The position numbers and the translations under genes were made by a program. A stretch of DNA of 64,000 nucleotides, taken from the NCBI RefSeq assembly GCF_002796605.1, contig NZ_CP024923.1:1922001-1986000 (forward strand), given 5' to 3'. This stretch comes from Sphingomonas psychrotolerans. GTDB lineage: Bacteria > Pseudomonadota > Alphaproteobacteria > Sphingomonadales > Sphingomonadaceae. This document shows positions 1,211 through 39,090 of the stretch, piece after piece; within the stretch, counting starts at the first letter, position 1, and the number at the start of each line of letters is the position of its first letter. The notes beneath the pieces are model-generated. The model worked only from the letters and a program-made list of their open reading frames with translations, did not search any database and had not been told where the DNA came from.

Positions 1211-1250
1211 GAAATCAGGTCCTCTCGGCCCGCATTGGCCACCTTTCCTC

Positions 1251-1256
1251 TATAAG
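1251..1256 (+). promoter_or_regulatory. YCTATAAT-type box upstream of flgI (TATAAG variant)
   Basis: CTCTATAAG lies 38 bases before the flgI start, in the fliX-flgI divergent gap. It is one of twelve boxes of the form YCTATAAT seen upstream of flagellar and neighbouring regulatory genes. I see no -35 hexamer. Confidence 0.5.
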
Positions 1257-7170: not shown

Positions 7171-7197
7171 CGGATCCGCACCTTTCCCCCATGCTCC

Positions 7198-7203
7198 TAT
7201 AAT
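7198..7203. promoter_or_regulatory. Symmetric YCTATAATAG box in the fliG / beta-propeller divergent gap
   Basis: GCTCCTATAATAGACG reads as CCTATAAT on the + strand (towards fliG) and as TCTATTAT on the - strand (towards the beta-propeller gene and flgB). The near-symmetry could serve both directions from one site. No -35 hexamer is evident on either strand. Confidence 0.5.
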
Positions 7204-9148: not shown

Positions 9149-9161
9149 GGCACAAACTGCC
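9149..9161. promoter_or_regulatory. FlbD-type palindrome upstream of fliF
   Basis: CGGCACAAACTGCCG fits GGCA-N5-TGCC and ends 14 bases before the TATAAT box at 9176. A degenerate second copy (GGCAAAAAATTCC) begins exactly 18 bases upstream at 9131. Similar palindromes lie upstream of fliL, the flagellin and flgE/flbT. Confidence 0.6.
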
Positions 9162-9175
9162 GCCCCCGGCCCCTC

Positions 9176-9181
9176 TATAAT
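9176..9181 (+). promoter_or_regulatory. YCTATAAT box of the fliF operon
   Basis: CCTCTATAAT lies 51 bases before the TTG start of fliF, directly downstream of the FlbD-type palindrome, which would occupy the usual -35 position. Confidence 0.6.
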
Positions 9182-10861: not shown

Positions 10862-11212
10862 ATGGCTACCGAACCCCACGACATCATCCCCGCAGATTCC
10901 GAAGAGGCGAGCGGCCCCGTGTTCGAAGATTTCGAGCCCTTTGCCACCGGCGATCATGCCGTTGCCGGCTCCGAAGGCCTCGAGGCGGTCCATGACGTGC
11001 CCGTCAAGGTCCAGGCAGTGCTCGGCCGCGCGCGTATGCCCGTCGGCGAGCTGCTGCACCTGACCGCGGGCACCGTGGTCGAGCTCGATCGCCGCGTCGG
11101 CGAGCCGGTCGACATCTTCGTCAACGATCGCCTGATCGCGCGCGGTGAAGTCGTGCTGATCGACAACGCGCTCGGCGTGACGCTCACTGAAATCGTTCGT
11201 CAGGACCGTTGA
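10862..11212 (+). CDS. fliN: Flagellar motor switch protein FliN
   Basis: This 116-residue protein has an acidic N-terminus and the C-terminal SpoA domain: VPVKVQAVLGRARMPVGELLHLTAGTVVELD through VFVND-like and GEVVLIDNALGVTLTEIV. With FliG and FliM it forms the C ring. ATG 10862 is preferred over ATG 10856 because AAGGAA lies at proper distance only from the former. The stop overlaps the flbD start (TGATG), so FlbD is translationally coupled to a structural switch protein, as in Caulobacter. Confidence 0.94.
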   Translation: MATEPHDIIPADSEEASGPVFEDFEPFATGDHAVAGSEGLEAVHDVPVKVQAVLGRARMPVGELLHLTAGTVVELDRRVGEPVDIFVNDRLIARGEVVLIDNALGVTLTEIVRQDR

Positions 11213-12546
11213 TGCCCGGAACTATCCGTATGATCCTCGTCGGCGCACCGGGCAGCGAATTCCGTCGCGCCGCGGAGATGGCGCGCGACGCCGGCGCCGA
11301 CGTGGCGATGGCCGATACGCCGGCGCAGGCGCTCGACTTTCTCCGCGAAGGCGGCGGCGACATGGTGATGATCGACGTCGACGCCGACATTGCCGGCTTC
11401 ATGGCGAGCATCCGCGCCGAACGTTTCACCATTCCCGTGCTCGCCTGCGGCATCCAGGCCTCGGCCGAGCGCGCAGTGGCTGCGATCCGCGCCGGCGCCC
11501 GCGACTATGTTCCGCTGCCCCCGCAGCGCGAGCTGATCGCCGCGGCGATCGCTTCGGTGATCGAGCGCAAGGCACCAGTCCGCATCGGCGATCACCCCGC
11601 CCTCGCCCGCGCTTTCGCGCTCGCCACTGCCGTGGCGCCGACAGCCGCTCCCATCCTCGTCACCGGCGAGAAAGGTAGCGGCAAGGAAGTCATGGCGCGC
11701 GCGATCCACGAAGCGTCGGGCCGTGCCAATCCGCTCCATGTCGTCGAATGCGCCGGTATCGGCGCCGATGTGCTCGAATCCGAGCTGTTCGGGCATGAAA
11801 CCGGAGCCTTTCCCGGCGCGGTCGCACGGCGCATCGGCCGGCTCGAAACCGCGGGCGGCGGCACGATCTTCCTGCGCGAAGTCGGCAGCCTCGCTCCCGC
11901 CATCCAGGCGCGCTTGCTCTCGGCGCTCCAGGAACAACGCTTCACCCGCATCGGCGGCGACGAACTGGTACCCTTTCGCGCGCGGCTGATCGCCTCGACC
12001 GGCATGGACCTCGAAGCCGCGGTCCATACCGGCAGCTTCCGCGCCGACCTGCTCGTCCGCCTCGGCCTCGTCCGTGTCGAGGTTCCGCCGCTGCGCGCGC
12101 GCGGCGGCGATCTGGCGCAGCTCGCCACGCATTTCGCCGAACGGCTCTCCGAAGCCGACGGCATCGTCGTCCGTCCGTTCAGCGACGCGACGCTGGTGCT
12201 GCTCTCGCGCTATGCGTGGCCGGGCAACATCCGCGAGCTCGAGGATTGCATTCACCGCGCTGTCCTGCTCGCGAAGGGGACCGCGATCGAGCCGGACGAC
12301 CTCGTCCGCTCGGACGGCACCCGCCTGCTCGACCTCGAGCTCGCCGAACCCGGCGGGCTGCAGATCGAGAGCCTTGTCGGCCGCACCGTCGAGGAGGTCG
12401 AGCGCGAGCTGATCCTCCACACGCTGGAGCGGTGCCACGGCAACCGCACCTCGGCGTCGAACATCCTCGGCATCTCGGTGCGCACGATGCGCAACAAGCT
12501 GCGCACCTTCATCGAGGCCGGCATCGCCGTCGCCCCGGCGCCGTAA
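11212..12546 (+). CDS. flbD: FlbD flagellar regulator with degenerate sigma-54 activator motifs
   Basis: The protein has 444 residues. It has a receiver-like N-terminus (1-115), an AAA+ domain (about 125-340) and a Fis-type HTH (EEVERELILHTLERCHGNRTSA onward, about 395-440). Walker A is intact (GEKGSGKE, 152-159). The sigma-54 contact loop GAFTGA reads GAFPGA (198-203). The Walker B motif reads FLREVG (220-225), with Arg for the catalytic Asp. Sensor I reads STGMD, with Gly for Asn. Gene order (fliN-flbD-flhA) identifies it as FlbD. The changes suggest it binds DNA but cannot remodel sigma-54 polymerase, as with Rhodobacter NtrC, which works with sigma-70. The changes are directly visible; the loss of function is inference. 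Confidence 0.9.
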   Translation: MPGTIRMILVGAPGSEFRRAAEMARDAGADVAMADTPAQALDFLREGGGDMVMIDVDADIAGFMASIRAERFTIPVLACGIQASAERAVAAIRAGARDYVPLPPQRELIAAAIASVIERKAPVRIGDHPALARAFALATAVAPTAAPILVTGEKGSGKEVMARAIHEASGRANPLHVVECAGIGADVLESELFGHETGAFPGAVARRIGRLETAGGGTIFLREVGSLAPAIQARLLSALQEQRFTRIGGDELVPFRARLIASTGMDLEAAVHTGSFRADLLVRLGLVRVEVPPLRARGGDLAQLATHFAERLSEADGIVVRPFSDATLVLLSRYAWPGNIRELEDCIHRAVLLAKGTAIEPDDLVRSDGTRLLDLELAEPGGLQIESLVGRTVEEVERELILHTLERCHGNRTSASNILGISVRTMRNKLRTFIEAGIAVAPAP

Positions 12547-12556
12547 CACCGACATT

Positions 12557-12577
12557 CTCCCTCCCTGATGGGGAGGG
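12557..12577. repeat. CTCCCT/GGGAGGG palindrome, copy 3
   Basis: Lies in the flbD-flhA gap, preceded by GACATTC as at 8977. It has no T-run and sits inside an apparent operon, so it is not a simple terminator. Confidence 0.4.
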
Positions 12578-12609
12578 CTTCAGAAGCCGCAATCGAACAG
12601 GGTCCGCAC

Positions 12610-14691
12610 ATGCCCCCCGCCGTCCTCAACATCTTGAACCGCCTCGGCCTGAACCGCGACCTCGCGCTCGCCGCTTCGGTCATCGCGATCATCGGCATGC
12701 TGATCCTGCCGATGCCGGGCTGGCTGCTCGATCTCGGCCTCGCTTTGTCGATCACGATCGCCGTGATGATCCTGATGACGTCGCTGTTCATCGAGAAGCC
12801 GCTGGAACTCAGCGCCTTCCCGACGATCCTGCTGATCGCGACGATGTTCCGGCTGGGCCTCAACCTTGCCTCGACCCGCCTGATCCTGACGCATGGCCAT
12901 GAGGGCCATGGCGCGGCGGGCGGCGTGATCGGGGCGTTCGGCGAGTTCCTGATGGGTGGCGAGGTCATCATCGGCCTCACCATCTTCATGATCCTGATCG
13001 TCATCAACTTCGTGGTGATCACCAAGGGCGCGGGCCGCATTGCCGAAGTCGCCGCGCGCTTCAGCCTCGATGCGATGCCGGGCAAGCAGATGGCGATCGA
13101 CGCGGATCTCTCCGCCGGCATGATCAGCGAGGAGCAGGCGCGCGAGCGCCGCGCCGAGATCGAGGCCGAGAGCGGCTTCTACGGCTCGATGGACGGTGCC
13201 TCGAAATTCGTGAAGGGCGACGCGATCGCCGCCTTGCTGATCACCGCAGTCAACATCCTCGTCGGCCTGACGATCGGCATCACGTCGCACGGCCTGCCGA
13301 TCGGCGAGGCCTTCCACACCTATACCGTGCTCACCGTCGGCGAGGGTCTGGTCAGCCAGATCCCGGCGCTGATCATCTCGATCGCCGCGGGTCTGCTCGT
13401 CTCCAAGGGCGGCATCAAGGGCAAGACCGGCACGACTTTGGGCGACCAGCTCGGCCGCTACCCCAAGGCCTTCGGCATGGTCGCGGTCCTGATGGGCGCA
13501 CTGGCGCTGATGCCCGGCCTGCCCTTCCTGCCCTTCGCCAGCTTCGCTGCCGCTGCCGGCTATGCCGCGTGGAAGATGAGCCAGAACATGCGGGCCAAGG
13601 CGGCGCGCGAAATTGCCGTCGCCGTGCAGGAACAGGCCCGCGAGGCCGTGGTCGAGCAGCCCATCTCGCAGACGCTGGCGCTCGACGCGGTGCGCATCGA
13701 GATCGGCTATGCGCTGCTGCCGATGATCAACGACGACCAGCGCGAGCCGCGCCTCGACGATCAGGTCCGCGCGCTGCGCCGCCAGATGGCCACCGATTTC
13801 GGCTTCGTCCTCCCCTCGGTCCGAATCATCGACAATATGGGCCTCAAGCCCAATGAATATGTCATCACGATCAAGGAGACCGAGGCGGCCCGCGGCGAGA
13901 TCAAGCTCGAGAAATTGCTGCTGATCAATCCGGGCGGCGGTCCGGTCGGCATGCCCGGCGAACTGACCAAGGAGCCGGTATTCGGCCTGCCCGCTTTGTG
14001 GATCGATCGCGAGCTGCGCGACGAGGCCGGCTTCCGGGGGCTGACCGTGGTCGATTGCGGCACGATCATCACCACGCATCTGACCGAATTGGTCAAGGAC
14101 AACATCGCCGATCTGCTCTCCTACACCGAGACGCAAAAGCTGCTGACCGAAGTCCACAAGGACGCCGAGAAGCTCGTCGCCGACATCGTCCCTTCGAAGG
14201 TCTCGATCTCGAGCGTCCAGCGCATCCTGCAGAATTTGCTGTCGGAAGGCATCTCGATCCGCGACATCCCGACGATCCTCGAAGGCATCGCCGAGGCCGC
14301 GCCCCTGACCGCCAATCTGACCCAGATGACCGAGCATGTCCGCGGCCGGCTCGCCCGCCAGATCAGCGCGTCGCAGGTTCGCGGCGAGGCGATCCCGGTA
14401 GTGACGCTCTCGTCCGAATGGGATCAGGCGTTTGCGGAATCGATCCTCGGCCAAGGCGACGATCGCCAGCTCGCGATGGCGCCCTCCTCGCTCCAGCGCT
14501 TCATCGCCTCGGTGCGCGAGACCTATGACCGGCTGGCGCAGGACGGCGAGATCCCTTGCCTGCTCACCAGCCCGTCGATCCGGCCGTTCGTGCGCTCGAT
14601 CATCGAGCGCGTTCGACCCGCGACGGTGGTGCTGTCGCAGAACGAGATCCACGCGCGTGCACGCATTCGGGCGCTCGGCACGATCGGTTGA
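12610..14691 (+). CDS. flhA: Flagellar export gate protein FlhA
   Basis: FlhA has 693 residues and forms the nonameric export ring of the flagellar type III secretion apparatus. The N-terminal half carries about eight membrane helices and the FHIPEP-type block between them (MFRLGLNLASTRLIL, then VVITKGAGRIAEVAARFSLDAMPGKQMAIDADL). The cytoplasmic C-terminal half has the expected subdomains. ATG 12610 after CAGGGTCC gives the normal family length; an in-frame ATG at 12568 would add 14 unrelated residues. FlhB, FliP, FliQ and FliR are not in the window. Confidence 0.96.
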   Translation: MPPAVLNILNRLGLNRDLALAASVIAIIGMLILPMPGWLLDLGLALSITIAVMILMTSLFIEKPLELSAFPTILLIATMFRLGLNLASTRLILTHGHEGHGAAGGVIGAFGEFLMGGEVIIGLTIFMILIVINFVVITKGAGRIAEVAARFSLDAMPGKQMAIDADLSAGMISEEQARERRAEIEAESGFYGSMDGASKFVKGDAIAALLITAVNILVGLTIGITSHGLPIGEAFHTYTVLTVGEGLVSQIPALIISIAAGLLVSKGGIKGKTGTTLGDQLGRYPKAFGMVAVLMGALALMPGLPFLPFASFAAAAGYAAWKMSQNMRAKAAREIAVAVQEQAREAVVEQPISQTLALDAVRIEIGYALLPMINDDQREPRLDDQVRALRRQMATDFGFVLPSVRIIDNMGLKPNEYVITIKETEAARGEIKLEKLLLINPGGGPVGMPGELTKEPVFGLPALWIDRELRDEAGFRGLTVVDCGTIITTHLTELVKDNIADLLSYTETQKLLTEVHKDAEKLVADIVPSKVSISSVQRILQNLLSEGISIRDIPTILEGIAEAAPLTANLTQMTEHVRGRLARQISASQVRGEAIPVVTLSSEWDQAFAESILGQGDDRQLAMAPSSLQRFIASVRETYDRLAQDGEIPCLLTSPSIRPFVRSIIERVRPATVVLSQNEIHARARIRALGTIG

Positions 14692-14714
14692 GACCGTTCG
14701 CGCAACAATCATCC

Positions 14715-14720
14715 TATAAT
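14715..14720 (+). promoter_or_regulatory. YCTATAAT box of fliK-flgD
   Basis: ATCCTATAATG sits 24 bases after the flhA stop and 40 before fliK. No -35 hexamer is evident. Confidence 0.55.
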
Positions 14721-17004: not shown

Positions 17005-17085
17005 GCCCGGATGATGTCGCTTCCGTACAAGCACTTAGCGGGGATTCCCCGCCCTTGTGCAGCAGTCCTTCACTCGCGGCCCGTC

Positions 17086-17091
17086 TATAAT
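17086..17091 (+). promoter_or_regulatory. YCTATAAT box with no downstream + strand gene
   Basis: CGTCTATAATG fits the flagellar box, but the next clear protein gene is on the opposite strand. A terminator lies about 105 bases downstream, so the box probably drives a short RNA. Confidence 0.5.
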
Positions 17092-18160: not shown

Positions 18161-18166
18161 ATTATA
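18161..18166 (-). promoter_or_regulatory. YCTATAAT box upstream of the 133-residue hypothetical gene
   Basis: On the minus strand the sequence reads CATCTATAATG, ending 20 bases before the TTG start of the gene at 18140. Confidence 0.5.
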
Positions 18167-18232
18167 GATGGCTCAACCATTTGGGCGGCGGAGATCCGCG
18201 GATTTCGTTGCGTTTGGTGCAAGCGGCGCGCA

Positions 18233-18307: not shown

Positions 18308-19168
18308 TTAACGGAACAGCGACGTGATGGTCTGCGGCGCCTGATTGGCGATCGACAGAGCCTGCACACCGAGCTGCTGCTTGACCTGCAGCGCCTGCAA
18401 GCGAGCCGATTCCTTGGCGAGATCGGCGTCGACGAGATTGCCGATGCCTGCCTCGATGGTGTCAGACAGCTTGCTGGTGAAGGTCGACTGAGCGTCGATC
18501 TTGCGCGATGCCGCGCCGAGCGTGCTCAGGGTCCCCTTCAGGTTTTCCTGAGTCGTGGTCAGCGTGTCGATCATAGCCTGGGCTGCGCCCTGGCTGCTGA
18601 TGTTGCCGCTGGCCGCAACGGTCACGACGGCGCCACCAAGGTCGAGACCCTGGTTTGCAACGCTGAGCGAGTCCGGATTCCAGGTCGTCGCCGAGCTGGT
18701 GTCCGAATCCTTCAGCGACTGCAGAGCGCTGACGCTACCGCCGCCCGAAGCCTTCAGCAGGTTGGTGCCGTTGAAGTCGGACGAGTTCACGATCGTGGTG
18801 ATCTGATCGCGCAGAGCCACGAAGTCGCTGTTGTACGCATCGCGGGTAGCCGTATCGATGCCCGCGTCGGCAGCCTGATAGGCCTTGGCCTTCATCTGGT
18901 TGACGACGTCGGAGATCTGCTCGGCACCTGCAACCGCCACGTCGGTCACGCTCTTGGCGCGGCTCAGCGACGAGGAAACGGCCTTGAGGCCGCCCATGTC
19001 GCCGCGAAGGCCCTGTGCGATCGTGAACGAAGCCGAGTCGTCCTTGGTCGAAGACACGTTCAGGCCGGTGTTGATGCGGCTCTGAACCTGCGACATGCCC
19101 TTGTTCGTCTCGGTGAGGCTCTGGAGAGCCGCCATCGCGCCGGTGTTGGTGTTGACAGAGAAACCCAT
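18308..19168 (-). CDS. fliC: Flagellin
   Basis: This 286-residue filament protein has conserved N-terminal D0/D1 helices (MGFSVNTNTGAMAALQSL, then RINTGLNVSSTKDDSASF) and C-terminal D1/D0 helices ending in LQVKQQLGVQALSIANQAP. The variable middle is very short, as in Caulobacter flagellins. Only one flagellin gene is present here. ATG 19168 follows AAGGAAA. It is monocistronic with its own terminator. Its leader is over 100 bases long and an FlbD-type palindrome lies further upstream, so both transcription and, by analogy with Caulobacter FlbT, mRNA stability may be controlled. Confidence 0.97.
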   Translation of the reverse strand: MGFSVNTNTGAMAALQSLTETNKGMSQVQSRINTGLNVSSTKDDSASFTIAQGLRGDMGGLKAVSSSLSRAKSVTDVAVAGAEQISDVVNQMKAKAYQAADAGIDTATRDAYNSDFVALRDQITTIVNSSDFNGTNLLKASGGGSVSALQSLKDSDTSSATTWNPDSLSVANQGLDLGGAVVTVAASGNISSQGAAQAMIDTLTTTQENLKGTLSTLGAASRKIDAQSTFTSKLSDTIEAGIGNLVDADLAKESARLQALQVKQQLGVQALSIANQAPQTITSLFR

Positions 19169-19298
19169 GATAATTTCCTTCTTGGACAAGAGCCGCTTCT
19201 GCGGCCCGGATCGGAAGCGCCGATCCGCGACCTGGCGCCTTCGCGCCCTGCAAGTTCATCATGGGAAGATTTCTGCGACCAACCAAATTACCGGCGAA

Positions 19299-19331: not shown

Positions 19332-19350
19332 CTAGGCAAGTTTTGCCTAG
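19332..19350. promoter_or_regulatory. FlbD-type palindrome upstream of flagellin
   Basis: CTAGGCAAGTTTTGCCTAG has perfect 8-bp arms and contains the core GGCA-N5-TGCC. It is the best copy of the palindrome in the window. Confidence 0.65.
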
Positions 19351-22210: not shown

Positions 22211-22223
22211 GGCAGAAATTGCC
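22211..22223. promoter_or_regulatory. FlbD-type palindrome between flgF and fliL
   Basis: CTAGGCAGAAATTGCCGGG contains GGCA-N5-TGCC and ends 12 bases before the fliL TATAAT box. It lies 30 bases upstream of the flgF start on the other strand. Confidence 0.62.
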
Positions 22224-22235
22224 GGGTGACCATCC

Positions 22236-22241
22236 TATAAT
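22236..22241. promoter_or_regulatory. Symmetric YCTATAATAG box in the fliL / flgF gap
   Basis: ATCCTATAATAGAAG reads as CCTATAAT towards fliL and TTCTATTAT towards flgF. Confidence 0.55.
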
Positions 22242-22298: not shown

Positions 22299-22835
22299 AT
22301 GTCGTCACCCGAGATCGTCGAGGAAGGTGCCGAGGGCGAAACGCCCGCGGCGCCGAAGTCGAAGAAGAAGCTTATCATTATAGGAGCCGCTGCAGGCGTG
22401 CTGGTGCTCGGCGCCAGCGGCGGCGCTGCGATGATGCTTTCCGGCGGGTCGACCAAGGCCGAGGCTACGGCCGAAGGGCATGGCGAAGCCGCGGCCGAGA
22501 GCGAAAGCGGCCATGGCGCGGAGGCGGGCAAGGAAGCTTTTGTCGACGTGCCGGCGATCGTGGTGAACCTGCGCTCGCCCGACGGCGCCTCGCGCTTCCT
22601 CAAGATCCACTTCATGATCGTGCCGGGCCCGAAGGGCACGCCGGAAGGCATCAAGGACAAGCTGCCGCTGATCCTCGACGCCTATCAGCCCTTCCTGCGC
22701 GAACTGCGCCCCGAGGATCTCGCCGGTTCGGCCGCGGTCTTCCGCATCAAGGAAGAGATGCTGGTCCGCGCCACCGAAAAGACCGGCCCTGGCGTGATCA
22801 AGGACATTCTCATTCAGGACCTCGTCCAGCAATGA
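22299..22835 (+). CDS. fliL: FliL, flagellar basal-body-associated membrane protein
   Basis: This 178-residue protein has a cytoplasmic N-terminus with a lysine run, a single membrane segment (IIIGAAAGVLVLGASGGAAMM, about residues 27-48), an acidic linker and a periplasmic SPFH-like domain ending VIKDILIQDLVQQ. FliL surrounds the stator and supports motor torque. It is first in a fliL-fliM-DUF6468-MotE-like operon with each stop overlapping the next start. A second FliL-like protein is encoded at 25491-25910. Confidence 0.9.
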   Translation: MSSPEIVEEGAEGETPAAPKSKKKLIIIGAAAGVLVLGASGGAAMMLSGGSTKAEATAEGHGEAAAESESGHGAEAGKEAFVDVPAIVVNLRSPDGASRFLKIHFMIVPGPKGTPEGIKDKLPLILDAYQPFLRELRPEDLAGSAAVFRIKEEMLVRATEKTGPGVIKDILIQDLVQQ

Positions 22836-25910: not shown

Positions 25911-25956
25911 AATCGAAACTCCATGGCTCGGGCGGTCGAGTGCGCCCCCATGCCTC

Positions 25957-25962
25957 TATAAT
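25957..25962. promoter_or_regulatory. Symmetric YCTATAATAG box before the TPR unit
   Basis: CCTCTATAATAGAATG reads YCTATAAT towards 25991 and TTCTATTAT towards the divergent FliL-like gene. Confidence 0.5.
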
Positions 25963-32633: not shown

Positions 32634-32646
32634 GGCAAAATTTGCC
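32634..32646. promoter_or_regulatory. FlbD-type palindrome between flgE and flbT
   Basis: CCCGGCAAAATTTGCCTACC contains GGCA-N5-TGCC. It lies 28 bases from the flgE box on one side and 30 bases from the flbT box on the other, so one site could control both. Confidence 0.62.
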
Positions 32647-32676
32647 TACCAAAAAACCTGTCGGCCGCGTCGCTCC

Positions 32677-32682
32677 TATAAT
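32677..32682 (+). promoter_or_regulatory. YCTATAAT box of the flbT-fliI-fliJ unit
   Basis: GCTCCTATAATG ends 30 bases before the flbT start. Confidence 0.58.
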
Positions 32683-32712: not shown

Positions 32713-33105
32713 ATGCTCCGCATCACGCTTCGCGACGGCGAGAAGGCGATCGTCAACGGCGCCGTCCTGCGCGCGGTCGGCCGCACGCAGATCGCGGTCG
32801 AGAACCAGGTGTCGATCCTGCGCGGCCGCGAAGTCATGCAGCCCGAGGAAGCCACCACCCCGGCGCGCCAGCTCTATTTCACTGCGATGCTCGCTTATAT
32901 CGATCCGGCCAATCGCAGCCAGCACCAGGACAATATCGTCACGCTGATCGGCAATCTGGTCGCCACGCTCACTGCTCCCGAGGCGCGGACTGCCTGCATC
33001 GGCTTCGCGCACGACATCGCCCAAGGCGAATATTACAAGGCGCTCTCGGCCGCGCGCGAGCTGATCGGCTTCGAGGACGTCGTAACCGAAGCTCAGGCCG
33101 CGTAA
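32713..33105 (+). CDS. flbT: FlbT, flagellin mRNA regulator
   Basis: This 130-residue protein carries the FlbT signatures LRITLRDGEKAIVNGAVLRA, VENQVSILRGREVMQPEEAT and TPARQLYFTAMLAYIDP. In Caulobacter, FlbT binds the flagellin mRNA leader and speeds its decay until the hook is finished, opposed by FlaF. No flaF is visible in the window. It is the first gene of flbT-fliI-fliJ-muramidase. The long leader of the flagellin mRNA at 19.2 kb fits the same mechanism. Confidence 0.93.
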   Translation: MLRITLRDGEKAIVNGAVLRAVGRTQIAVENQVSILRGREVMQPEEATTPARQLYFTAMLAYIDPANRSQHQDNIVTLIGNLVATLTAPEARTACIGFAHDIAQGEYYKALSAARELIGFEDVVTEAQAA

Positions 33106-33117
33106 GGACCGCTGCGC

Positions 33118-34473
33118 GTGCAGACTCTCCCCAGCGCCGCCCGCGCGATCCGCAATATGGTGCCCGACCGCCGCTTCGGCAGCGTCGTCGCGGTTCGCGG
33201 CGCGCTGATCGAAGTGGAGGGGCTCGCCGGAGTCGCGCAGATCGGCAGCCGCGTCGAAATCCAGGGCTCCAGCGGCAAAGTCGAGGCCGAAGTCACTGCG
33301 CTCGACCGCAACGTCGCGCTCTGCCTTCCCTTTGTCGATCCGCAAGGCGTCGGTCTCGGTTCGCGTGCCGAACTCGCCGCCGGCCAGTTCAGCATCCGCC
33401 CGTCGACCGCATGGCTCGGCCGCATGATCAACGGTCTCGGCCGCCCGGTCGACGGTCTCGGCGCGCTTCACAACGGCGCCGATCCGCAGCCGATCAAGGC
33501 CTCGCCCCCCGCCGCTTCCAACCGCGCGCGCGTCGGTCGCCGCATCGAAACCGGCGTGCGAACGCTCGACCTGTTCGCGCCGCTCTGCGTCGGCCAGCGG
33601 CTCGGCCTGTTCGCCGGCTCGGGTGTCGGCAAGTCGGTCCTCCTCTCGATGCTTGCGCGCTGGACCGAGTGCGACGTCGCCGTCATCGGCCTGATCGGCG
33701 AACGCGGCCGCGAGGTTCAGGAATTCATCGAGGACGATCTCGGCCCCGAGGGCATGGCCCGCTCGGTCGTCGTCGTCGCCACCTCGGACGAGCCCGCACT
33801 GATGCGCCGCCAGGCCGCATGGACTACCCTCGCCGTCGCCGAGCATTTCCGCGATCAGGGTCTGAACGTCCTCTGCCTGATGGATTCGGTCACTCGCTTC
33901 GCGATGGCACAGCGCGAGATCGGCCTCGCCTCGGGCGAGCCGCCTGCCACCAAGGGTTATACCCCAACCGTTTTCGCCGAATTGCCCCGCCTGCTCGAGC
34001 GCGCCGGCCCTGGCGAGCCCGGCAAGGGCATGATCACCGGCCTGTTCACTGTCCTCGTCGACGGCGACGACCATAACGAGCCCATCGCCGATGCGGTTCG
34101 CGGCATCCTCGACGGCCACGTCGTGATGCGCCGCGCAATCGCCGAGCGCGGCCGCTATCCAGCGATCGACGTGCTCAAATCGGTGTCGCGTACCCTGCCC
34201 CATTGCATGAACGACGAGCAGAACGCGACGCGCATCGCCGCGCGCAAATTGCTGTCCACCTATGCCGATATGGAAGAGATGGTCCGCCTCGGCGCCTATA
34301 AAGCCGGCTCGTCCGAAGAAGTCGATCGCGCGGTGGCACTCGCTCCGCAGATCGAGGCGCTGATCAACCAGGGCAAGAACGAGCGCGGCAACGCCGATGC
34401 CGGCTTCGCCGCTCTCGCGGAAATCCTGGGCAGCGAGCTCTTCGCCGCCGAGCCTCTCGGGATCGCCGCATGA
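33118..34473 (+). CDS. fliI: Flagellar export ATPase FliI
   Basis: This 451-residue protein has Walker A GLFAGSGVGKSVLLSML (about residues 160-176), the FliI/F1-beta block GLIGERGREVQEF and Walker B VLCLMDSVTRFAMAQREIGL. FliI energises unloading of export substrates at the base of the flagellar secretion apparatus. It starts with GTG after AAGGA. It is followed by fliJ with a four-base overlap. Confidence 0.97.
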   Translation: MQTLPSAARAIRNMVPDRRFGSVVAVRGALIEVEGLAGVAQIGSRVEIQGSSGKVEAEVTALDRNVALCLPFVDPQGVGLGSRAELAAGQFSIRPSTAWLGRMINGLGRPVDGLGALHNGADPQPIKASPPAASNRARVGRRIETGVRTLDLFAPLCVGQRLGLFAGSGVGKSVLLSMLARWTECDVAVIGLIGERGREVQEFIEDDLGPEGMARSVVVVATSDEPALMRRQAAWTTLAVAEHFRDQGLNVLCLMDSVTRFAMAQREIGLASGEPPATKGYTPTVFAELPRLLERAGPGEPGKGMITGLFTVLVDGDDHNEPIADAVRGILDGHVVMRRAIAERGRYPAIDVLKSVSRTLPHCMNDEQNATRIAARKLLSTYADMEEMVRLGAYKAGSSEEVDRAVALAPQIEALINQGKNERGNADAGFAALAEILGSELFAAEPLGIAA

Positions 34474-34898
34474 CTCCGTTCGACACAGCACTGCGCGTCC
34501 ACCGCCGCGAAGTCGACGCCGTCAAGGTATCGATCAGCGTCGAGGTCGAGCGCATCACCACGCTCGAAGCCCAGACCCGCGCACATGACGCCACGCTGCG
34601 CGAGGAACGCGCGCTCGCTTCCGCTCTTCCTTTCGCCAGCGACGCATGGACCGCGCGGATGAAGGCCCAACGCGCCCGCCTCGACGAGGCAGCCTATCTC
34701 GCCCAGGCCCGGCTCGTCCGACTGCGCGACAAGGCCATCGAAGCCTATGGCACGATGCGCGCGATCGAAGGCGCGGCCGAACGCTACGAGGACGAGGCCG
34801 AACGCACCATTGCGCTCGCCGAACAGAGCGCGATCGACGACATCGCCGCCGCCCGCTTCCTGCGCGCCCGCGCCGTCAGCAAGCGTCGCCCGGCATGA
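34470..34898 (+). CDS. fliJ: FliJ-like export coiled-coil protein
   Basis: This 142-residue protein is predicted to be one antiparallel coiled coil (TALRVHRREVDAVKVSISVE to YEDEAERTIALAEQSAIDD). FliJ is the central stalk of the FliI ring and escorts chaperones to FlhA. Sequence identity within this family is low; position directly behind fliI is the main support. The start overlaps the fliI stop and its stop overlaps the next start. Confidence 0.85.
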   Translation: MTPFDTALRVHRREVDAVKVSISVEVERITTLEAQTRAHDATLREERALASALPFASDAWTARMKAQRARLDEAAYLAQARLVRLRDKAIEAYGTMRAIEGAAERYEDEAERTIALAEQSAIDDIAAARFLRARAVSKRRPA

Positions 34899-35944
34899 TC
34901 AATCCGACGCAACTCGCCGCTCTCTCTCCGCAGAAGCGCGCGCAAGTCATCTATGCGGAGGCACAGTCGCAGCTCTCGAGCCGGCTGTGGCGCGCCGCGC
35001 TCGGCGACGGCGACAGCAAAGACGCGCGCGACGCCTCGCCCTTCGGCGGCAACAATATGAACATGGATTCGCTGCTCGGCCTGCTCGGCGGCCGCGAAAG
35101 CATGGCCGGCGCGCAGGCGCCCTGCGCCTGCCATTGCGCATGCAACTGCCACAAGCCGGCCGACGCGGCTCCGGTCAGTCAGCCGGCCAAAGTCGGTATC
35201 GGCACCACCGGCGCCGGCACGATCGATCCCGACGAGCCGCGCACCGCTTATACGCCCGTGCGATTGTCGACCGGCGATGGCGCGGCGGGCAGCAACGGCA
35301 ACCTCCAGCTCGGCGCCAATGCGCGCTACGCCGGCACCTTCGCAATGGCCGAAGCGCGCACCGGCATCCCCGCCTCCGCGCTGGCCGCGATCGTCGATGC
35401 CGAAGCCGCCAAGACCGGCGACGGCAGCTGGAACACCCATTCGCGCAACCCGCGCTCGAGCGCCGCCGGGCTCGGCCAGTTCCTCAGCGGTACCTGGCAG
35501 GATCTGGCACAGACCCAGGGCACCTGGCTCAACACGTATGCCGCCGATCGCGGCTGGCTCGACGGCCGTGGGCGGCTCCAGACCGGCAACCGCGCCGAAC
35601 TGCTCGCATTGCGCTATGATCCGCAGGCTTCGATCCTCGGCGTCGCCGATCTCGCCAAATGCAATCTCGATCGGCTCGAACAGGTCGGGGTCCGGGTCCG
35701 CACCGATGCCGAGACGCTCGCCAAAGCCGCCTATCTCGGCCACCATCTCGGGCTTGGCGACGCCAGGAAGTTCCTGAGCGGCGGGATCGACGCGGGCCGC
35801 GCCCGCATGCTCCTTTCGGCCCAGATCGGGTCGTCGGCGGCCGAGCAGCGCATCGCCAGCACGGGCAACGCCACCCAGGCGCATCGCCAGTGGCTGCTGG
35901 GCTTCATCGATCGGAAAATTCGCCCCGACGCGTTCGCGGCGTAG
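34895..35944 (+). CDS. Putative flagellar muramidase with a Cys/His cluster
   Basis: This 349-residue protein has a helical N-terminus (1-70), a tight cluster CACHCACNCH (about residues 79-88) and a lysozyme-like domain from about 145 (FAMAEARTGIPASALAAIVD, AEAAKTGDGSWNTHSRN, then AAGLGQFLSGTWQDL). Glu within IVDAEAAK is the candidate catalytic acid. It probably supplies the wall-cutting activity that FlgJ lacks here, by analogy with Rhodobacter SltF. I see no classical signal peptide, so export through the flagellar apparatus is possible. It is the last gene of the flbT operon, overlapping fliJ by four bases. Confidence 0.75.
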   Translation: MINPTQLAALSPQKRAQVIYAEAQSQLSSRLWRAALGDGDSKDARDASPFGGNNMNMDSLLGLLGGRESMAGAQAPCACHCACNCHKPADAAPVSQPAKVGIGTTGAGTIDPDEPRTAYTPVRLSTGDGAAGSNGNLQLGANARYAGTFAMAEARTGIPASALAAIVDAEAAKTGDGSWNTHSRNPRSSAAGLGQFLSGTWQDLAQTQGTWLNTYAADRGWLDGRGRLQTGNRAELLALRYDPQASILGVADLAKCNLDRLEQVGVRVRTDAETLAKAAYLGHHLGLGDARKFLSGGIDAGRARMLLSAQIGSSAAEQRIASTGNATQAHRQWLLGFIDRKIRPDAFAA

Positions 35945-35953
35945 ATTTCTTCC

Positions 35954-35959
35954 TATAAC
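35954..35959 (+). promoter_or_regulatory. YCTATAAC box upstream of the sigma factor gene
   Basis: TTCCTATAACG lies 10 bases after the muramidase stop and 216 before the sigma gene ATG. The 230-base gap also holds two copies of CGTAGATTTCT (35939 and 36018), which could mark a binding site. I see no other gene in the gap. Confidence 0.4.
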
Positions 35960-36174
35960 GAAATCACTGTTTACCATGCGCCATGGCGCGGTTAGCAACC
36001 CGTAAACCATTGTAGATCGTAGATTTCTGCGGGTTCCGCCCCACCTACGGGCCATCCCCACTGCGTAATTTTACATATAGGAGCGGTTTACATCCGTTAA
36101 AGGATTAACTGGCATCAGTGTCCCTGTCGAAAGGGCAGCCTCAGGGCGGCCTCCACGAAACAGGGGATTGCAAA

Positions 36175-37224
36175 ATGTCGAAGATCACGATCGCGCTCGA
36201 AGCCGCCGTTGCCACCGTCATCGAAAACACGCCCGCCGACGGCAACCGCAGCAATCGTCAGCGCGTGTATGTCGATCGTGCCTTCGCCCAGATCCTCAAG
36301 CTGATCGCCCCGCGCATCCGCCACTTCATCCGCCAGTACGGCCTGGTCGCCCATTGGGACGATGCCGAGCAGTGCTGCGCCATCGCCGTTCACCGCGCGA
36401 TCGAGGCCTATGACCCCGCCAAGGCGCAGTTCACCACTTTCGTGAACTGGCAGATCCGCGGCGAGCTCCAGAGCCTCCGCTTCCGCCTGATGACCGATCA
36501 GCGCCCCTCGGCGAAGAAGGTCGAGGCGACCACCGTGTCGCTCAACGCGCTCTCCGTCGGCATGGACGGCGAGGAAATGTCGCCCGAGACGCTGATCGAG
36601 GACGAGGACGCCCTCGCCCGGACCGAAGCCGCCGCATCGGACTATCTCTCGGAAGGCGCGATCGCCTCGCTGGTCGACGCCTATGTCGATCACCTCCGCA
36701 AGGTCGGCATCGAGGCGCTCCGCCGCCGTCCCCGTCCGAAGCGTGAGGAAGCCGCTCTCCGCCGCGAAGGCCCGCGTCTCCGCACCGCCACCTACGGCAT
36801 CGATCCCGCCGAGCTCGAGAAGCTCGAAGCCAAATTGAGCCGCGACCGCGACATCGTCGTCCGCCGCGTGTTCCAGGCCTCGACCCTCGACGATCTCTCG
36901 CTCGAGACCGGCGTCACCAAGGAGCGCGTCCGTCAGATCACCAAGCGCGCCGCCAAGACGCTCGCCGAAATCGCCGCTGCCGATCCGCGCTTCGCCGTGA
37001 TGGCGGAATATGGCCGCGCCGCGACCAAGCGCCGCCAGCCGGCACCGGCGACCACCTCGCTGCTGCCCGATGCCGATCAGCCGCACAACCGCCTCGCCAG
37101 CGTCCGCGCCATCCAGCCGGCCGAGCTGAACGTCGCGCTGGCCGCCCCGGTCGAGAGCGTCGAGCGCGTCGAGGCGGTGCTCATCGCTCAGGCCGCTGCC
37201 CCTTCGACCGCCATTCTGCACTAA
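36175..37224 (+). CDS. Divergent sigma-70-family factor encoded in the flagellar cluster
   Basis: This 349-residue protein has region 2 at about 34-108 (core-binding YVDRAFAQILKLIAPRIRHF, -10 recognition FTTFVNWQIRGELQSL) and region 4 at about 215-270, with the HTH TLDDLSLETGVTKERVRQITKRA. The long linker between them (110-215) has an arginine-rich stretch and no clear region 3, and about 75 residues follow region 4. It is not RpoD, FliA, RpoH or an ECF factor by size or motif order, though region 2.4 (QIRGEL) recalls FliA (RIRGAM). ATG 36175 follows AGGGGAT; an upstream in-frame GTG at 36118 is less likely. Its targets may be the YCTATAAT promoters; that is inference. Confidence 0.85.
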   Translation: MSKITIALEAAVATVIENTPADGNRSNRQRVYVDRAFAQILKLIAPRIRHFIRQYGLVAHWDDAEQCCAIAVHRAIEAYDPAKAQFTTFVNWQIRGELQSLRFRLMTDQRPSAKKVEATTVSLNALSVGMDGEEMSPETLIEDEDALARTEAAASDYLSEGAIASLVDAYVDHLRKVGIEALRRRPRPKREEAALRREGPRLRTATYGIDPAELEKLEAKLSRDRDIVVRRVFQASTLDDLSLETGVTKERVRQITKRAAKTLAEIAAADPRFAVMAEYGRAATKRRQPAPATTSLLPDADQPHNRLASVRAIQPAELNVALAAPVESVERVEAVLIAQAAAPSTAILH

Positions 37225-37258
37225 TTTCGCCAGACCACCCGCACATCCGTATTCTTCC

Positions 37259-37264
37259 TATAAT
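37259..37264 (+). promoter_or_regulatory. YCTATAAT box upstream of the gene at 37290
   Basis: TTCTTCCTATAATG ends 25 bases before the start codon, a spacing close to that of flbT. Confidence 0.55.
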
Positions 37265-39043: not shown

Positions 39044-39084
39044 AGCCGCAAATACGCTCGCGCCCAAAGCCCTGAATAACCTCC

Positions 39085-39090
39085 TATAAA
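39085..39090 (+). promoter_or_regulatory. YCTATAAT-type box upstream of the GGDEF-EAL gene (TATAAA)
   Basis: CCTCCTATAAAG lies 37 bases before the ATG at 39127. Confidence 0.45.

Follow-up and report, generated by a model that had tools for sequence, protein, structure and literature searches.

A sigma-70-family factor has probably taken over from RpoN in one flagellar cluster of Sphingomonas psychrotolerans

One flagellar cluster of S. psychrotolerans probably has its own dedicated factor of the sigma-70 family, which would act at a single-box promoter, approximately TCCTATAAT, and would have taken over there from RpoN. The window, by which we mean the whole stretch of 64,000 nucleotides analysed, covers C1:1922001-1986000 of a genome that measures 5.04 Mb on two contigs. 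In its open reading frame list the gene for the factor lies at 36175-37224 on the forward strand and encodes 349 aa; a longer frame from an alternative GTG start at 36118 is possible.

36175..37224, + strand: sigma-70-family factor P0001, with region 2 at about residues 26-110, region 4 at about 221-268 and a disordered tail at 279-349

The first-pass annotation had described an atypical sigma-70-family protein in a flagellar cluster, in which regions 2 and 4 are recognisable, region 3 is not clear and the tail is 75 residues long. This description holds: Pfam and an AlphaFold2 model agree on regions 2 and 4, and the tail is disordered in the model. With recognisable regions 2 and 4, the protein is a member of the sigma-70 family at the superfamily level. 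Pfam Sigma70_r4 matched residues 223-263 at 29.0 bits (cut-off 24.1), and Sigma70_r2 matched residues 46-99 at 20.3 bits, below its cut-off of 24, with the two regions in order. None of the NCBIfam sigma models scored above its cut-off; the nearest was TIGR02937 (general sigma-70), at 38.0 bits just below 42.9. The score against RpoD_Cterm was 24.6 bits (cut-off 354), which places the protein outside RpoD groups 1 and 2. ECF factors are short proteins with a short linker between regions 2 and 4, and this one has about 120 residues between the two matches and a tail of about 75. Its best-conserved stretch is residues 83-122 (regions 2.3-2.4 and onward, including NWQIRGELQS at 91-100), where 32 of 40 positions were invariant in 24 homologues; the figure for region 4 was 8 of 48.

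The AlphaFold2 model, made from a 24-row alignment (mean pLDDT 70, pTM 0.36), has confident helices at about 3-107 and 211-269. A long helix at 144-184, confident from about 160, stands at the place of region 3. A FliA-type region 3 domain was not visible in the model, where the stretch 110-160 is of low confidence; pLDDT was below 50 at 110-124, 140-148, 279-297 and 307-349. Foldseek against the PDB ranked sigma-70 chains at the top, none with an E-value of 1e-3 or less, so we claim no structural kinship. The S. psychrotolerans genome gave no second copy of the sigma, the other match being a 45-residue stretch at E 0.18.

Pfam and NCBIfam matches together with position identify flgI, fliG, fliH, fliF, fliN, a FlbD homologue, flhA, fliK, flgD and flagellin in the cluster, and on the same basis flgH, flgA, flgG, flgF, fliL, fliM, flgL, flgK, flgE, flbT, fliI and probably fliJ. 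The product of orf37290 (171 aa) had no match in Pfam or NCBIfam. The genes that matter most for what follows are these.

12568..14691, + strand: flhA of the window type (TIGR01398, 864.9 bits, cut-off 772.1)
18308..19189, - strand: flagellin of the cluster (Pfam Flagellin_N and Flagellin_C)
32713..33105, + strand: flbT (NF001995, 111.5 bits, cut-off 125)
33118..34473, + strand: fliI, which opens the block fliI-fliJ-orf34895-sigma, kept in relatives
34895..35944, + strand: orf34895 (349 aa), which accompanies the sigma in 67 of 80 loci (the best 80 of 134 named loci) and also in the relics of genomes G335 and G154

S. psychrotolerans has two flagellar sets. The second, the type-2 cluster, has FliA, an intact activator with GSFTGA and LLDEI, and sigma-54-like sites. 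A third FlhA-like gene (G000:C1:1695485-1697350) gave a two-piece match with both pieces below the FlhA cut-off, and is probably a different kind of export gate, from type III secretion. It had been noted that the window encodes neither FliA nor RpoN, and genome searches do place both outside it, rpoN at C1:2989267-2989746 and fliA adjoining the second FlhA near C1:3.234 Mb. The accompanying proposal, that the factor replaces sigma-28 and sigma-54, is well supported for the window cluster by linkage, boxes and the decay of FlbD; as a claim about the whole genome it is wrong, because these same genes rule it out. RpoN was present in 25 genomes out of 26, and the one without it has a completeness of 67% (as does G137), so only its use in the window cluster appears to have been lost. 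In 10 other genomes with the sigma, FliA was above the cut-off in six, just under it in G256 (179.8 against 189.6) and not found in G229, G201 and G419.

The YCTATAAT boxes reported in the first-pass annotation are real: TTCYTATAAY, with one mismatch allowed, has 7 sites in the window where 0.79 are expected. YCTATAAT itself occurs 10 times in window positions 1-41000 and 0 times in 41000-64000, and these 10 are among 78 in the whole genome (binomial p 1e-9). The boxes and their variants stand as follows.

1249..1256, + strand: box TCTATAAG, 45 bp before flgI
7196..7203, + strand: box before fliG, which starts at about 7226
9174..9181, + strand: box 58 bp before fliF, kept in 15 of 18 clusters with the sigma
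14713..14720, + strand: box 47 bp before fliK, which starts at about 14760
17084..17091, + strand: box TCTATAAT, near small genes beside flagellin
18161..18168, - strand: box TCTATAAT, 28 bp before an ORF of 133 aa that is also on the - strand
22234..22241, + strand: box 41 bp before fliL, kept in 16 of 17 clusters with the sigma
22377..22384, - strand: box CCTATAAT, about 200 bp upstream of flgF, within the annotated fliL frame
25955..25962, + strand: box TCTATAAT, 299 bp before orf26254
32675..32682, + strand: box 38 bp before flbT, kept in 14 of 17 clusters with the sigma
35952..35959, + strand: box CCTATAAC, 223 bp before the sigma gene
37257..37264, + strand: box 33 bp before orf37290
39083..39090, + strand: box CCTATAAA, 44 bp before a GGDEF-EAL gene

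The window flagellin gene has no YCTATAAT box. Across the clusters with the sigma there were 154 YCTATAAN sites, 71 of them with a recognised cluster gene start at most 320 bp downstream. No -35 hexamer accompanied the boxes: the mean best match to TTGACA was 1.74 of 6 at 57 cluster boxes, against 2.44 at nine control TATAAT sites. Among named loci a loose box lay within 330 bp before flbT in 47 of 65; before the inner operon genes the counts were 3 of 67 for fliI, 0 of 67 for orf34895 and 0 of 64 for flgL. For the sigma gene itself, 28 of 69 named loci had a loose box no more than 330 bp away; in the cluster stretches of relatives, by the recount given below, a box stood before it in 1 of 17, which is the window. 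Its CCTATAAC box would leave a leader of about 200 bases (35960-36174), longer than at the fliF, fliL and flbT boxes, and autoregulation with a long leader is possible. A per-gene recount in relatives with a slightly different pattern (CTAGAAT allowed) gave flgE 4 of 17, flgD 0 of 18, fliI 0 of 17, orf26254 5 of 16 and, within 200 bp upstream, flgF 0 of 17; its rows for fliG (0 of 18) and fliK (1 of 17) are unusable, as the ORF starts were taken too early.

Outside the window we read 65 boxes, a set without C1:3242358, C1:3248149 and C2:54603; most were inside coding frames and 12 were judged intergenic. The downstream ORF was scanned at seven of the 12, giving MotA, a CHASE3-HAMP protein, a Suv3-type helicase and four without a match. 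The motA box is 43 bp before the gene (TIGR03818 above cut-off) and 16 kb ahead of the window. The CHASE3-HAMP gene follows its box by 41 bp, and its product may be either a chemoreceptor or a kinase because its end is missing from the sequence read. At C1:176969 (L111) an intergenic TCTATAAT box has a palindrome-like sequence upstream and is followed by a gene for a 392-aa protein without a Pfam match.

The second line of evidence is the state of FlbD in the same cluster.

11209..12546, + strand: FlbD homologue, with GAFPGA for GAFTGA and FLREV for Walker B LLDEI (NF050807, 476.4 bits, cut-off 750)

Opening of a sigma-54 promoter depends on the acidic residue of Walker B as well as on the GAFTGA loop. 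For GAFTGA this is set out in the accessible part of PMC10274813. The window FlbD has neither the loop nor the Walker B aspartate, which is replaced by arginine with the adjoining glutamate kept, while its Fis-type HTH is intact; as sequences go, this makes it unlikely that RpoN serves the window cluster through FlbD. The pattern extends to relatives. GAFTGA was kept in none of the 18 sigma-positive clusters, against all five sigma-negative clusters with a FlbD (the count omits G153, where the FlbD search gave no hit). Eight of the 18 have a full-length FlbD with GAFPGA, GDFPGA, GAFAAA or a deleted loop, all eight with arginine for the Walker B aspartate. In the other 10 the protein is reduced to 94-168 aa that carry the Fis-type HTH, and the AAA+ domain is gone. 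Four of the five sigma-negative proteins have LLDEI, and the remaining one, from G123, is broken ahead of this motif. With G299 and G123 left out, mean identity in the AAA+ domain was 0.52 for seven full-length sigma-positive proteins against 0.74 for four sigma-negative ones, and in the HTH 0.78 against 0.80. A held-out genome from a different order, G419, labelled to the same class only and examined after the pattern of FlbD and boxes had been found, fits it: its FlbD has GAFEGA and a Walker B of LRDI, and there are 13 boxes in 60 kb.

Upstream of many boxes lies a palindrome that is probably the FlbD site. Its pattern is GGCA-N5-TGCC, searched with one mismatch allowed, and its core is AT-rich.

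9149..9161, no strand: palindrome GGCACAAACTGCC, centred 21 bp upstream of TATAAT in the fliF box and probably a site for FlbD
19335..19347, no strand: palindrome upstream of flagellin, with no YCTATAAT box after it
22211..22223, no strand: palindrome GGCAGAAATTGCC, centred 19 bp upstream of TATAAT in the fliL box and probably a site for FlbD
32634..32646, no strand: palindrome GGCAAAATTTGCC, in the flgE-flbT interval and centred 37 bp upstream of TATAAT in the flbT box

At 106 boxes we counted 48 palindromes where 3.1 were expected from a density that includes the sites themselves. They fall at two distances upstream of TATAAT: 30 sites are 18-22 bp away from it and the other 18 are 34-43 bp away.

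We infer that the sigma itself reads the box. It would bind core RNA polymerase, and its region 2 would recognise approximately TCCTATAAT in a promoter without a recognisable -35 hexamer. FlbD, in which the AAA+ domain is either missing entirely or stripped of its GAFTGA loop and Walker B aspartate, would persist mainly as a DNA-binding HTH on GGCA-(AT-rich 5)-TGCC, 18-22 or 34-43 bp upstream of TATAAT and so roughly where region 4 would make its contact; from over the -35 position it could either recruit or block. Our tentative suggestion, which we hold at somewhat short of an even chance, is a switch of promoter class, in which a new type of sigma with a -10-like box replaced RpoN and FlbD was cut down to a DNA-binding domain that may substitute for the -35 contact. 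The presence of region 4 in the sigma, although no -35 hexamer is seen, is a point against our preferred explanation.

The remnant may instead act on the palindrome as a repressor of early genes, with the sigma still reading the boxes. This is possible if rather doubtful; it has its first half in common with our preferred explanation, and the odds of the two overlap. In Caulobacter, FlbD binds to ftr sites and is a repressor of fliF and an activator of later genes (accessible parts of PMC3930126 and PMC3096577). Four of six sigma-negative clusters (the exceptions are G123 and G153) have a similar palindrome at 71-111 bp before fliF, so the site probably predates the switch, which suits a repressor. 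An activator would be equally consistent with the missing -35 hexamer and with two offsets that differ by about 18 bp.

The sigma is tied to flagellar genes of the window type. In a sample of the order (118 genomes) four matched the sigma at E 1e-10, our own genome and three at 149-155 bits, and in a sample of the class (385 genomes) the only matches were in G000 and G419. The family sample of 298 genomes was richer, with 41 matches, 20 above 300 bits and 21 at 58-231 bits. FlhA of the window type (69-100% identity) occurred in 18 of the 298, all 18 among the 20 strong carriers (Fisher p 6e-27 for co-occurrence, in genomes that are related). Equal frequency in non-flagellated relatives, which the first-pass annotation had named as refuting its proposal, was thus not seen. 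The strong carriers without this FlhA were G335 and G154. Six more family genomes had FlhA at 54-67% identity and no strong sigma, one of them, G153, with a weak linked homologue. The distance from sigma to FlhA was 13-33 kb in 17 of the 18 genomes; the exception is G347, which has a split cluster with the sigma beside flbT-fliI-fliJ. Among the best 80 of 134 named loci, 67 had flagellar neighbours. The other 13 comprise two cut by contig ends, 10 extra copies in assemblies that, by record prefix, also have a cluster copy, and one alone, L047 (IBVSS2), where flagellar neighbours are absent.

That the housekeeping RpoD reads the boxes, helped by the FlbD remnant over the -35 position, with the cluster sigma serving elsewhere or a passenger, is unlikely. 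TATAAT is a -10 of the sigma-70 type, the sigma is also found without flagellar genes, and NtrC proteins without GAFTGA, from Caulobacter and Rhodobacter capsulatus, are active at sigma-70 promoters (accessible part of PMC10274813). The distribution of the boxes speaks for the dedicated sigma. The 3.9 kb of intergenic DNA in the window cluster, as defined by open frames, has 8 boxes (7 if counted as CTATAAT), or 20.6 per 10 kb, whereas 56.9 kb of control intergenic DNA from 20 stretches of 20 kb in the same genome has 2, or 0.35 per 10 kb, a density about 59 times lower. Sigma-positive cluster stretches have 1-10 boxes each (the window 10, ten relatives 59 in total, seven others 2-7 each; the fewest are one in G201 and four in G251). 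Boxes are few in the six sigma-negative clusters, with 0, 0, 0, 0, 3 (G053, GC 48%, expected 1.6) and 2 (G153), and in type-2 clusters, with 0, 0, 0 and 2. T stands at -7 in 82% of the 71 sites with a gene start, whereas in the sphingomonad Novosphingobium aromaticivorans more than 80% of sigma-70 promoters have no conserved -7T (accessible part of PMC8407463). All 18 genomes that have FlhA of the window type also have the sigma in a flagellar locus.

The wider family to which the sigma belongs has other associations. Window-type FlhA was absent from 20 of the 21 weak carriers, so the family at large is not flagellar. Four plasmid records matched the sigma, and the two that were read are one flagellar block and one non-flagellar context. 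The Erythrobacter aureus plasmid keeps the block flgK-flgE-flbT-fliI-(two genes)-sigma. The mobilizable plasmid p1 of Sphingosinicella sp. BN140058 (L264) has a sigma-family copy among RNA ligase and uracil-DNA glycosylase genes, with no annotated flagellar genes within 9 kb. Sphingomonas deserti (L101) has a second sigma copy beside relatives of orf41403, PepSY and TonB-receptor genes, with an HWE histidine kinase upstream; in the window, orf41403 and the PepSY and TonB-receptor genes begin 4 kb past the sigma. In G335 (locus L179) and G154 (locus L180) the pair of sigma and orf34895 is kept, and a stretch of 57 kb around it gave neither boxes nor other flagellar genes of the window type. The retained pair suggests either a non-flagellar function of the pair or recent loss. 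The linked homologue in G153 (G153:C1:841601) is divergent, at 58 bits and 27% identity, and sits in a deeper-branching cluster in which no FlbD was found; the two boxes there are both away from the flagellar genes found. It is possibly an independent or an older case.

Strict sigma-54-like sites number 1 in the window cluster (0.8 expected) and 6 in the type-2 cluster of the same genome (1.4 expected). That RpoN still drives the window cluster through another activator, with the sigma only an added layer, is very improbable, since the 17 sigma-positive clusters other than G122 have 0-2 strict sites (0.4-2.2 expected) against the 6 of the type-2 cluster, even though rpoN is kept in nearly all genomes, the type-2 cluster has its intact activator and G122 has 4 sites (1.6 expected). 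Sigma-negative clusters were not clearly enriched either (5 against 2.8, 0 against 0.2, 1 against 0.6, 5 against 1.6 and 1 against 1.6), so the argument for sigma-54 use in these sister clusters is their FlbD.

The exchange of RpoN for the dedicated sigma was probably a single evolutionary switch. In the FlhA tree all sigma-positive clusters form one clade (support 99/100), so the genome counts are not independent events, and those with truncated FlbD also form one clade (99/96). Distances between sigmas correlated with those of FlhA (Spearman 0.89), FliI (0.88), FlbT (0.60) and FlgK (0.45).

FliA (sigma-28) is the obvious comparison, as a sigma-70-family factor tied to flagellar genes, and motA is among the probable targets of the window sigma. 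The -10 box of FliA is GCCGATAA. The window sigma's box is different, the protein scores 24.6 bits against FliA_WhiG TIGR02479, far below the cut-off of 189.6, it has no clear region 3, and a true FliA is present in another cluster of the same genome. The window cluster resembles the FlbD/sigma-54 control of Caulobacter in having FlbD and FlbT, a FlbD-like palindrome before fliF and no FliA, but its FlbD cannot be a normal sigma-54 activator, whereas Caulobacter FlbD has GAFTGA (accessible part of PMC10274813). Loss of the sigma-54 contact loop with retention of the DNA-binding domain is also seen in the enhancer-binding proteins NtrC of Caulobacter and Rhodobacter capsulatus and VspR. Those proteins are described, in the same part of that source, as active at sigma-70 promoters; here the loss in FlbD accompanies a dedicated sigma, and 10 of the 18 clusters have no AAA+ domain left at all.

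Plant-associated Sphingomonas have two flagellar islands per genome, independently acquired and differentially expressed, according to the accessible part of PMC13015449, and S. psychrotolerans is like them in having two flagellar sets in one genome. A term search of the main text of that paper, as accessible, gave 0 hits each for sigma, fliA and rpoN. For Sphingomonas sp. WG a Caulobacter-like control with FlbD as sigma-54 activator has been proposed (accessible part of PMC8921679). In the open-access literature, a scope that takes in few subscription journals, we found no paper on this sigma or on the loss of GAFTGA from FlbD.

Sigma-54 and sigma-70 promoters differ in their opening mechanism, so the exchange of a whole regulon between them is not expected to be easy. 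Here there are sister clusters with and without the swap, together with stages in the decay of the old activator, FlbD. The finding also offers a testable reason why a single Sphingomonas genome can express its two flagellar sets separately, since each set would be served by a sigma and an activator of its own.
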